Below the pieces are notes generated by a model. That model worked only from the letters and a program-made list of their open reading frames with translations. It did not search any database and was not told the DNA's origin. From Streptomyces sp. NBC_01142 (GTDB taxonomy: Bacteria > Actinomycetota > Actinomycetes > Streptomycetales > Streptomycetaceae): a stretch of DNA of 64,000 nt. Within the stretch, counting starts at the first letter, position 1; every line of letters starts with the position of its first letter. Position numbers and translations under genes: made by a program. The stretch spans positions 3,403,001 through 3,467,000 of the forward strand of contig NZ_JAPEOR010000002.1 of NCBI RefSeq assembly GCF_026341125.1, in the 5' to 3' direction. Positions 23,205 to 25,812 of the stretch are shown here, piece by piece.

Positions 23205-23723
23205 CTAGGGGAGCGCGGTGCTGACCGCGTCGATTGCCATCATCCACATCGGCTGCCCGCCCGTGCCGAATGCCGCGGCCAGCGCATAGCCCAGCGAGGC
23301 GTCCAGCGGCTTCACCTCCGCGTCCTCGCGCCAGTCGGCCAGCACCCTTCCGTCGCCGTCCGAGGAGAAGTCCCCGATGTGCTTCCCGTCCCGGGTCAGC
23401 CTGCTGCTCGGGATGGAATCGGGGACCAGGCGGTACGACGCTCCGTCGTACTCCACGTCGACACGGTACGAGCGGCGGCTCAGCTTGCCCTTGGCCGGCG
23501 CCAGCTTCACCTCGGTCCCGTCGATCGTCAGAGTGAGCCGCTCGGGGTCACGGGTGCCGATGGCGATGTGATCGTCCACCTCCGCCCCCGGGGCGCGGGT
23601 CAGGGTGATGCGGGGGATCTGCTCCCCGTCCACCACCAGGGATTCCTGGCCGTCCAGTTGGACGCTGACCTCGCCGAAGAGGTCGTCGTGAGTGGAGGTG
23701 GGCGTGGGGGCTGTGTCGTTCAT
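23205..23723 (-). CDS. Conserved hypothetical protein
   Basis: A 172-residue soluble protein without signal peptide. It looks all-beta, with alternating strands (EVSVQLDGQESLVVDGEQI, RLTLTIDGTEVKLAP, GASYRLVPD) and a C-terminal helix (LGYALAAAFGTGGQPMWMM). ATG 23723 has GGACC upstream. No family name comes to mind, although the sequence looks like a real conserved actinobacterial protein. The frame extends upstream only as a low-complexity artefact. It is convergent with the dnaK operon. Confidence 0.65.
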   Translation of the reverse strand: MNDTAPTPTSTHDDLFGEVSVQLDGQESLVVDGEQIPRITLTRAPGAEVDDHIAIGTRDPERLTLTIDGTEVKLAPAKGKLSRRSYRVDVEYDGASYRLVPDSIPSSRLTRDGKHIGDFSSDGDGRVLADWREDAEVKPLDASLGYALAAAFGTGGQPMWMMAIDAVSTALP

Positions 23724-23941: not shown

Positions 23942-24925
23942 TCAGCCCTCGTGCTCCAGAATCGCCGACTGCGCGATGAGGTAGCCGAGTTGGGTCCGAC
24001 TGCCGCTGCCGAGCGCCGAGCCGAGCTTGGCGATATGGGCGCGGCAGGTGCGCACGTTCATCCCGAGGCGTCGCGCGATGGCCTCGTCGACATGGCCCTC
24101 GACGAGCAGCTTGGCGATCGAGCGCTGCACCCCCGTGATGCCGTCCATCTGCGGCCCGTACGAGATCTGCTCCTCCCATGGGATGGCGTGCAGCCAGAAC
24201 TGCTCGAAGACGCCCACGAGATACTCGACGATGCCCTTGTGCCGTAGCTCAAGTGCCGACAGACGGTCGCTGCTTGCCGGGATGAAGGCTACTTTCCGGT
24301 CGACAATGATCAGCCGGTCGATGATCTCCTCGAGCGTGCGCACCTCCACTCCGGACGGCCCCACCTGCTCCATGTACGAAAGCGTGGCCGGGTGGTGACG
24401 GGCCGTGTGCTGATAGAGGGTCCGCATTCGGACGCCGCGGTTGATAAGTGGCTCGACGCGACGCAGTGCCTTCTCCAGGATGTGTGGCTGTCGCCCACTG
24501 CCGGGCTGCACCGTGAGAAGCTCCTCCGAGCAATCTGCGGTGACTTGGTCGAGGGTTGTGTTGATGCGGTTGAGACCCTCGAGGACGGTAATTCCTTGTG
24601 GGACGGTGGAGTTCTGCGCGCTGAACGCCATGAATGGCTCAAGAGCATCGGTCAGAGACACGGTTCGACGTCGACGCTCTTGGATCTCCCGCTCAATGGG
24701 GTGTATCAGCTGTGTCAGCGCAGTGGTTGGCGGAACCGGACGCAGCCATTGAGCGTCGTCCGGGTCCGGGTGAAGCAGGGCGAGATCGAAGAGACAGGGT
24801 GTGGCCTCCGCCTCTGAGCGGGTGATTCGCCCCGTACGCAGGGCAGTGGTGTAAAGACCCTTCCCCGCCTCACACAGCTCGCCGTCCGTGTGAGGGTGTC
24901 CTGAATCGCCCTCTTTCGATGGCAT
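23942..24925 (-). CDS. TrmB-like/LuxR-type transcriptional regulator
   Basis: A 327-residue regulator. The N-terminal part (about 10-75: LCEAGKGLYTTALRTGRIT) is TrmB-like; the middle (INRGVRMRTLYQHTARHHP, LIIVDRKVAFIPAS) resembles the effector-sensing region of that group; the C-terminus is a LuxR/GerE HTH (VDEAIARRLGMNVRTCRAHI). ATG 24925 is preferred over ATG 24949 because AGGGGG lies just upstream. It is divergent from the GEPSWG-repeat peptide gene, about 125 bp start to start. It probably controls that gene and may sense its product or a processed peptide (inference). Confidence 0.75.
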   Translation of the reverse strand: MPSKEGDSGHPHTDGELCEAGKGLYTTALRTGRITRSEAEATPCLFDLALLHPDPDDAQWLRPVPPTTALTQLIHPIEREIQERRRRTVSLTDALEPFMAFSAQNSTVPQGITVLEGLNRINTTLDQVTADCSEELLTVQPGSGRQPHILEKALRRVEPLINRGVRMRTLYQHTARHHPATLSYMEQVGPSGVEVRTLEEIIDRLIIVDRKVAFIPASSDRLSALELRHKGIVEYLVGVFEQFWLHAIPWEEQISYGPQMDGITGVQRSIAKLLVEGHVDEAIARRLGMNVRTCRAHIAKLGSALGSGSRTQLGYLIAQSAILEHEG

Positions 24926-25051
24926 ATGCACCCCCTCAGGCTCCTGCATTACAGGAACATGATGCCTGCCGTCGCTGGTGCAAGCGTTCGGAGTGAGACA
25001 TCGTCTTATGCGCGGGGGAGGAGGAATGATCAGAAGAGGTGGAGATCGCCC

Positions 25052-25411
25052 ATGTCTAGGAAGCTTCGAGCTCTTTGTGCTCTTGCCGTGGCGGCGGCCG
25101 CGTTCGGTGCGGTTGCCTCCGGTGAGCCCTCCTGGGGTAGCTCTCCCGCCGGTGCGGTGACGGCGGCTCCCGGCGAACCGTCGTGGGGTGTTGCTCCCGC
25201 GGCCACCAAGGGTGAGCCGTCATGGGGTGTTGCTCCTGCGGCGAACCCCGGCGAACCGTCGTGGGGTGTTGCTCCCGCGGCCACCAAGGGTGAGCCCTCC
25301 TGGGGTGTTGCTCCTGCGGCGAACCCAGGTGAGCCGTCATGGGGTGTCGCACCTGCGGCCGCTCAGGGCGAGCCCTCGTGGGGCGTCGCTCCGGGCCTCG
25401 CGGACGCGTGA
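25052..25411 (+). CDS. Secreted tandem-repeat peptide precursor (GEPSWG repeats)
   Basis: A 119-residue product. A signal peptide (MSRKLRALCALAVAAAAFG, likely cut near AVA-SG) precedes seven GEPSWG copies. Six lie in an exact 13-residue period (39 bp, 25172-25405), GEPSWGVAPAA followed by TK, NP, TK, NP and AQ in turn; the first copy is divergent (GEPSWGSSPAG) and the last ends VAPGLADA. Ser codons of the SW pair vary (TCC, TCG, TCA) while the residues do not, which suggests selection on the peptide. AGGTGGAG lies 7-8 bases upstream of ATG 25052. The stop overlaps the next GTG. It could be a multicopy signal precursor, a RiPP-like substrate or a surface repeat; I know no named family. Confidence 0.8.
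   Translation: MSRKLRALCALAVAAAAFGAVASGEPSWGSSPAGAVTAAPGEPSWGVAPAATKGEPSWGVAPAANPGEPSWGVAPAATKGEPSWGVAPAANPGEPSWGVAPAAAQGEPSWGVAPGLADA
25172..25405 (+). repeat. Six 39-bp in-frame tandem repeats
   Basis: Units start at 25172, 25211, 25250, 25289, 25328 and 25367, each encoding GEPSWGVAP plus a short spacer. Units alternate between two versions (spacer TK versus NP), as if a 78-bp double unit had been duplicated. Confidence 0.95.
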
Positions 25412-25725
25412 CCGTTCCACCGGACGACCGGGTCTTTCGGCGCGAAATGGCTTCGGCTTATCGGTCGGGGTGGCATTTCATCGACCTCGTCACGGCAATC
25501 CCCCACCGTGGCGACTCGTTGATGGTCACCCTGTTCGGAGAGCCAGTGGTCGTGGCGCGTGAGGAGGACGAGGACGTCCGTGCCTACCGCTGCCTGCGCC
25601 GGCCCCGAGGAGCCCCGCAACCCGTCCGCTGTGCCATCCGGTACGGCATGATTTTCGTCAATCTTGATCAGCGCGACCACCAGCTGGTCGAGCCAGACAC
25701 CACCGCCACCCCCCGCAGTGCCTGA
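25408..25725 (+). CDS. Small Rieske-like protein lacking the His ligands
   Basis: A 105-residue protein coupled to the repeat peptide by a GTGA overlap. The layout matches a Rieske oxygenase N-terminal domain: SGWHFIDLVTAIPHRGD, LFGEPVVVAREED, YRCLRRPRGAPQ, VRCAIRYG and MIFVNLD. In true Rieske proteins the two ligand motifs read CxH and CxxH; here they read CLR and CAIR, with both His replaced by Arg. It therefore should not hold a 2Fe-2S cluster in the normal way. It may be a binding or partner protein for the peptide. The fold assignment is by eye and moderately secure. Confidence 0.62.
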   Translation: MTVPPDDRVFRREMASAYRSGWHFIDLVTAIPHRGDSLMVTLFGEPVVVAREEDEDVRAYRCLRRPRGAPQPVRCAIRYGMIFVNLDQRDHQLVEPDTTATPRSA

Positions 25726-25767
25726 GCGATTCCCCCGTCGTTGTAAATCGCTCAGGCGCTTCCCCCA

Positions 25768-25812
25768 CACAGCGGCGCCATCGTGGACCTGAAACACGAT
25801 GGCGCCGCTGTG
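25768..25812 (+). terminator. Terminator of the repeat-peptide operon
   Basis: A perfect 18-bp inverted repeat, CACAGCGGCGCCATCGTG and its complement, with a 9-base loop, lies 42 bases after the Rieske-like gene. Confidence 0.88.

Follow-up and report, generated by a model that had tools for sequence, protein, structure and literature searches.

A candidate multicopy, polymorphic peptide pheromone with its own TrmB-like/LuxR-type regulator in Streptomyces

A three-gene locus of Streptomyces sp. NBC_01142 probably encodes a multicopy, polymorphic peptide pheromone together with its own intracellular receptor/regulator, a reading to which we assign a probability of about 0.78. The locus lies in a window of 64,000 nucleotides (contig NZ_JAPEOR010000002.1, positions 3,403,001 to 3,467,000) within a 10.1-Mb genome and comprises genes for a TrmB-like/LuxR-type regulator, a secreted precursor and a Rieske-like protein. 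Sequence analysis provided the grounds for this reading: the gene order, the multicopy cores, their constraint at the protein level, their polymorphism between species, the link between core type and the regulator part taken to do the sensing, and a conserved intergenic element. After export, the precursor would be cleaved to give several identical short peptides with [DE]xxW at their centre (in this strain roughly GEPSWG); these would re-enter the cell, probably via an oligopeptide transporter, and bind the PLD-like middle of the neighbouring regulator. Binding would alter the action of the regulator at the conserved element and so the expression of regulator, precursor and Rieske-like genes, with species differing in core type and each having its own matched receptor.

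By ORF reading in the window, the trio sits between dnaJ/hspR and clpB (Table 1). The regulator, precursor and Rieske-like ORFs are positioned as the earlier note had placed them, including the GTGA at 25408-25411, where the GTG start of the Rieske-like gene overlaps the TGA of the precursor. The regulator is divergent from the precursor, both in the window and in relatives. Its ORF contains an internal ATG at 24925 with, by sequence reading, a GAGGGGG stretch 5 nt upstream, and this ATG may well be the true start. The neighbours of the trio are heat-shock genes, a PPOX-class protein and a 172-aa ORF. The last has no Pfam or NCBIfam match and occurs in 18 of the 80 named relatives, a set of 79 Streptomyces records plus one actinobacterium record. 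No transporter, protease or export gene was found within the locus. The 18-bp inverted repeat, previously described as a terminator, does have perfect arms; with convergent genes on both sides and no T run after it, its role as a terminator is putative.

Table 1. Features of the locus and its surroundings, in window coordinates.
Feature	Position	Strand	Basis or remark
172-aa ORF	23205-23723	-	window ORF list
TrmB-like/LuxR regulator, proposed peptide receptor	23942..24949	-	ORF, 335 aa
Candidate operator CAGGAACATGATGC in the regulator-precursor gap	24952..24965	+	conservation; exact copy also in L270
Secreted precursor, N-terminus signal-peptide-like	25052..25411	+	119 aa; homologues in relatives
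GEPSWG cores, seven, first to last	25121..25384	+	repeat and residue count
Rieske-like protein, incomplete cluster ligands	25408..25725	+	ORF, 105 aa
Second inverted repeat, 15 nt, 93%	25717-25760		overlaps end of Rieske-like gene, upstream of perfect repeat
Perfect 18-bp inverted repeat, possible two-way terminator	25768..25812	.	arms 25768-25785 and 25795-25812

The precursor, whose signal peptide was called by a simple hydrophobicity rule, contains seven copies of GEPSWG rather than the six counted earlier. They start at residues 24, 41, 54, 67, 80, 93 and 106, the first spacing being 17 residues and the remaining five 13. The tandem-repeat score of 336, and the retention of the cores in protein while the codons of relatives vary, argue that the array is more than chance. 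Conservation is limited to offsets -3 to +1 around the tryptophan, that is, to [DE]xxW and in part the next residue; the mature unit is therefore probably shorter than 13 residues, and we rejected the 13-residue repeat that had been proposed as the released peptide. A PHROGs search found nothing, and GEPSWG was mentioned in none of the open-licence papers searched (no preprints). Open-licence titles and abstracts contained no description of such a peptide-regulator system, which may be in print elsewhere. The computed [M+H]+ values of candidate peptides are 632.27 for GEPSWG, 899.43 for GEPSWGVAP and 708.32 for SDTIWS, and we know of no match between such masses and an old Streptomyces signal.

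Searching with the precursor gave matches in 24 of 150 Streptomyces genomes, at 25 places, 17 of which were taken as real. Sixteen of these have a strong regulator match and a Rieske-like gene; the seventeenth, L014, has a distant regulator and lacks the Rieske-like gene. Places L018-L025 of this first genus search showed neither a regulator nor a Rieske-like match and were therefore set aside as chance. A better marker than the precursor is the Rieske-like protein: at E<=1e-3 it turned up in 337 of the 392 Streptomyces genomes, with weak scores in a minority of them. At E<=1e-8, Streptomyces supplied all 15 of the genomes that matched among 197 of the class, a sample covering 90 genera; within the family the protein was found in 5 of 41 genomes, the five being Streptomyces, and in 0 of 36 from other genera. 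In these samples the marker of the trio is thus confined to the genus.

A divergent regulator and a secreted precursor accompany the Rieske-like gene in 149 of 149 loci examined, with secretion judged by hydrophobicity alone. A script took 150 loci, the one lacking the Rieske-like gene being L014, and recognised the arrangement in 148; the other, L139, was missed by the signal filter; it has the regulator match, and inspection by eye showed a precursor with three DITW cores. These are the best-scoring loci, some of them from the same genome fetched twice, and they yield 117 distinct precursors, 75 of which come from named records. The unit of three genes proposed in the earlier note, a multicopy secreted peptide gene and a partner gene beside a regulator of their own, is thereby borne out: far from occurring without its neighbours in most relatives, the repeat gene stands in a complete trio in all 149. 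Copy number ranges from 1 to 12 cores per precursor among the 117, several single-copy precursors keeping the core at the very C-terminus, and 101 of the 117 distinct loci have the same kind of frame overlap between precursor and Rieske-like gene. The PPOX gene is present in 80 of 80 named loci, and in many relatives the locus likewise lies between the hspR/dnaJ and clpB stress genes. The stretch from hspR to the precursor holds, in many relatives, two or three more family regulators (judging by length, SCO3665/SCO3666) in a row beside the first, for example in L088 (1626-4694), L101 (1617-4652), L113 (503-4697) and L270 (5209-8373). No second precursor was seen beside these row regulators in the eight loci examined, so they may read the same peptide as the first regulator.

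The cores differ between species and are uniform within a precursor. In the mature parts, D or E stands three places before the tryptophan in 434 of 441 cases; the core search pattern itself fixes W and the D-or-E choice, which leaves the middle residues and D versus E to carry the information. We distinguished 29 core types, including EPSW, EPTW, DSGW, DSTW, EISW, DIGW, DLGW and DVGW. The middle residues were alike in 778 of 793 core pairs within precursors, against 12701 of 93168 (13.6%) between them. All cores are identical as protein in 98 of 108 multicopy precursors, and in 79 of those 98 their DNA differs. We counted 727 synonymous nucleotide differences between cores and 17 non-synonymous codon differences, where a crude neutral count would expect about 2500. 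Agreement within precursors reaches 99% for the cores, 72% for the residue after the tryptophan and 26-52% for flanking and linker positions. Uniform protein cores with synonymous change indicate that selection preserves the core within each precursor, even though it differs from one species to the next. Mixed cores occur in 10 of the 108 multicopy precursors (e.g. EYSW with EPSW, DLAW with DLGW). In L005 and L046 the first core is EYSW and the rest are EPSW, possibly a change of signal type in progress.

Profile searches suggest that the regulator combines a TrmB-like N-terminus, a PLD-like middle and a C-terminal LuxR-type helix-turn-helix (HTH). Positions 55-251 of a profile built from 17 family members matched archaeal TrmBL2 chains (E about 4e-9), and positions 264-326 matched LuxR-type HTH chains; a phospholipase chain was weakly matched as well (E 0.001), and PLD-like is the label that we take to describe the effector part of TrmBL2. 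In Pfam, the window protein scored 17.3 bits for GerE and 17.6 bits for DUF7436, both under the curated cut-off, and each of the 17 members hit GerE at an E of 0.01 or lower, the strongest at 6.8e-10. The Pfam matches of the regulator and the 17 members include no TrmB model, and no TPR family was found for the regulator (E up to 1) or the members (E up to 0.01).

Core type follows the middle part of the regulator better than it follows clpB, the Rieske-like gene or the HTH. For 70 named loci with clpB (71 minus one with a truncated HTH), the partial correlation of core difference with the middle part, given clpB and rsk, was 0.51, compared with 0.29 for the N-terminus and 0.24 for the HTH. 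When the other two regulator parts were also controlled, the values became 0.40 for the middle, 0.08 for the HTH and -0.02 for the N-terminus. The Rieske-like gene correlated with core difference at 0.16 given clpB, and at 0.02 given clpB and the middle part. At clpB distances of 0.02-0.04, pairs with the same core (34 pairs) gave 0.027 for the middle, 0.078 for the N-terminus and 0.026 for the HTH; pairs with different cores (6 pairs) gave 0.366, 0.397 and 0.139, respectively. The N-terminus diverges with the core too, from a higher base.

Shuffles restricted to clades never reached the observed value in 500 trials with 31 clusters, nor in 500 with 15 clusters, where 1 of 500 did so once HTH and N-terminus were controlled; at the tightest clustering, with 49 clusters of which just 4 contained mixed cores, 39 of 500 reached it. 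Mapping core type takes 23 changes for the middle-part tree and 25 for the N-terminal one, against 30 for clpB, 31 for rsk and 33 for the HTH, with a minimum of 19 and a shuffle average of 47. Were linkage the sole cause, the N-terminus and rsk, as the parts closest to the precursor, should do best. The most core-informative sites fall mostly in the middle part (T153, D159, V253, A192, R247 and M138 in L035 numbering), with Q10, K9 and L76 in the N-terminus, and the best regulator sites share more information with the core than does any clpB or rsk site. Given the N-terminal values (0.078 against 0.397) and the 25-change tree, some of the specificity may lie outside the middle part.

The gap between regulator and precursor holds a conserved element, in which GAACATGATGC is invariant in 117 of 117 intergenic regions and the word CAGGAACA occurs in 113 of the 117. 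Among the matches listed for 21 genomes, the exact 14-mer CAGGAACATGATGC was found once each in nine Streptomyces, this genome included, in 0 of eight genomes from other families, and not in G008, which has a borderline Rieske-like match. With one mismatch allowed, it was not clearly commoner than its reversed control in Streptomyces, and a wider regulon was not indicated across the 21 genomes. We regard CAGGAACATGATGC as a candidate operator, pointing to control of its own locus.

The partner protein described earlier as Rieske-like is present and translationally coupled; its resemblance to the family is weak, and its set of cluster ligands is incomplete. Rieske [2Fe-2S] proteins hold their cluster through two cysteines and two histidines. 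The Pfam Rieske match scores 14.7 bits against a cut-off of 20.3, NCBIfam gives matches to oxygenase large subunits far under their cut-offs, and the protein aligns to the opening portion of the Rieske domain found in ring-hydroxylating oxygenases. In these alignments the first cysteine and histidine positions are R64 and P66; for the second pair, which the tool left unaligned, comparison by eye suggests that C75 remains and R78 replaces the histidine. A true Rieske protein was rejected on these replacements. All four residues are invariant in 28 sequences, whose mean column identity is 84%. The gene hardly follows core type, and its product is therefore probably a general output or accessory protein.

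The earlier note had left signalling, RiPP-like maturation and a surface polymer all open; signalling is now favoured over the other two, since cores vary between species, are alike inside any one precursor and follow the part of the regulator that would do the sensing. A tandem array of 1 to 12 copies would also be accounted for by a structural or surface repeat protein: unequal crossing-over would make its repeats drift together, and the regulator would do no more than control it. Crossing-over, however, would homogenise the linkers as well, and these agree far less than the cores, which stay alike through synonymous change; the core survives in single-copy precursors too, in several of them right at the C-terminal end, and the association with the sensing part would go unexplained. 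We rejected this explanation, the core being conserved beyond the linkers, and consider it very improbable. A RiPP or other modified peptide with repeated cores, which several cores per precursor and a dedicated regulator would suit, is rated just as low. A secretion-type leader is unusual for RiPPs. The trio has no recognised modification enzyme or peptide transporter, the sole oxygenase-like protein has an incomplete set of cluster ligands, and no post-translational modification enzyme appeared among the matches of the trio and three scanned neighbours; the absence of such an enzyme from the trio led us to reject a RiPP.

More credible, while still unlikely, is intracellular self-sensing, in which precursor fragments or failed export would report the state of secretion or of the envelope, with no communication between cells. 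The tight linkage and coevolution with a cytoplasmic-looking regulator would fit, as would the place of the locus among stress genes in many relatives. Self-sensing needs no polymorphism, however, and species-specific multicopy cores would better fit a released signal; moreover, it is the core, not the signal sequence, that tracks the regulator. The pheromone reading has its own difficulties, in that it offers no explanation for the Rieske-like gene, some multicopy precursors have mixed cores and the locus supplies no gene for transport, proteolysis or export.

Related pairs occur elsewhere in this genome and in the genus. The three closest family relatives of our regulator in this genome each have a secreted ORF with W cores nearby (L027, DSGWG; L028, DNTWGP; L029, DSSWN/DSSWD); beside five more distant ones, no such ORF was seen. 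Searching with the L028 regulator gave 30 of 121 Streptomyces genomes, and 21 of these 30 loci have a signal-bearing ORF that ends in W plus at most two residues. The two controls gave 2 of 19 (window tiles, Fisher p 8e-5) and 4 of 34 (loci of distant relatives, p 2e-6). Two of the 21, L274 and L282, look like chance; the other 19 include repeats of VIGWD (three to five copies), DAGWQ, DLPWT and SINWD, and single C-terminal cores such as DMGWQ, DMIWQ, DMSWQ and DHGWQ. In L287, one of four DAGWQ units reads DAGRQ, a decayed copy in an otherwise uniform array. Under a strict C-terminal rule, such a peptide stood near 5 of 19 high-, 2 of 17 middle- and 1 of 32 low-scoring unlinked regulators, one L196 peptide being counted for two regulators; controls gave 0 of 33 window genes and 4 of 126 other ORFs. 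Other genera yielded a few pairs (two DTSWGQ in L167, DTGWP in L168, STIWG in L172), and most related regulators there showed no W-core precursor.

As a kind, a peptide with an intracellular receptor is known from Firmicutes. In RRNPP systems (Rap, Rgg/ComR, NprR, PlcR, PrgX), a small gene for a secreted precursor stands beside the gene for a peptide-sensing regulator, and the processed peptide, short and often taken from the precursor C-terminus, is sensed inside the cell. The Streptomyces locus resembles these in that a secreted-propeptide gene adjoins the regulator in every one of the 149 loci (secretion by hydrophobicity), and differs in its TrmB-like receptor with a LuxR-type HTH and no TPR match, in having up to 12 copies per precursor and in its host. 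The agr and ComQXPA systems, also of Firmicutes, use membrane kinases and modified peptides; they share with our locus a polymorphic signal matched by a divergent sensor part with a conserved output part, whereas here a single DNA-binding protein would do both and the trio has no kinase or modification gene. Like the yeast alpha-factor precursor, ours is apparently secreted and carries several copies of one short peptide, and we know of no common sequence or processing signals between the two. The family profile links the receptor to archaeal TrmB/TrmBL2, from which it differs in its C-terminal LuxR-type HTH and in a proposed peptide ligand instead of sugars or none. In Streptomyces, antibiotic production is controlled by a small signal in gamma-butyrolactone signalling (PMC13220807), from which the present signal would differ in being gene-encoded; accounts of Streptomyces communication usually centre on gamma-butyrolactones, and for this genus the accessible part of that May 2026 review names them alone (PMC13220807). 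Our searches of the open-licence literature turned up no precedent for the receptor class, for a multicopy precursor in a bacterium or for the host.

A possible link to antibiotic control comes from a genome that is apparently S. violaceoruber (G246), a close relative of S. coelicolor. Its locus reads dnaJ, hspR, a 394-aa regulator (+), a 327-aa regulator (-), the precursor-adjoining regulator (-), precursor, Rieske-like gene and clpB, without a PPOX gene; the precursor has a single C-terminal SDTIWS, and the same 14-bp element lies in the gap. By gene order and regulator lengths, SCO3664 of S. coelicolor should be the orthologue of the receptor: in the available parts of two reports, SCO3665 and SCO3666 are LuxR-family proteins of 327 and 394 aa (PMC3282765), and clpB and hspR are SCO3661 and SCO3668 (PMC2631018). 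Insertion mutants in SCO3664 are reported to have made >50-fold more actinorhodin, and the gene is listed as a downmodulator (PMC6585502); in that study, complementation succeeded for 12 of the 16 regulator mutants tested, and an SCO3664 plasmid is listed (PMC6585502). The phenotype itself is silent on any peptide.

We consider it slightly better than an even bet that these loci belong to an unrecognised pheromone superfamily of Streptomyces and some related Actinobacteria, in which precursors with 1-12 copies of a short W-peptide and matched TrmB-like/LuxR receptors would give each genome several parallel channels, the locus described here, near-universal in Streptomyces, repressing antibiotics until its signal arrives. 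Because each strain's core is legible in its genome sequence, the idea can be tested straight away with a single synthetic peptide per strain. If it is true, a gene-encoded signal present in most of the genus would provide a direct handle on the timing of antibiotic production.
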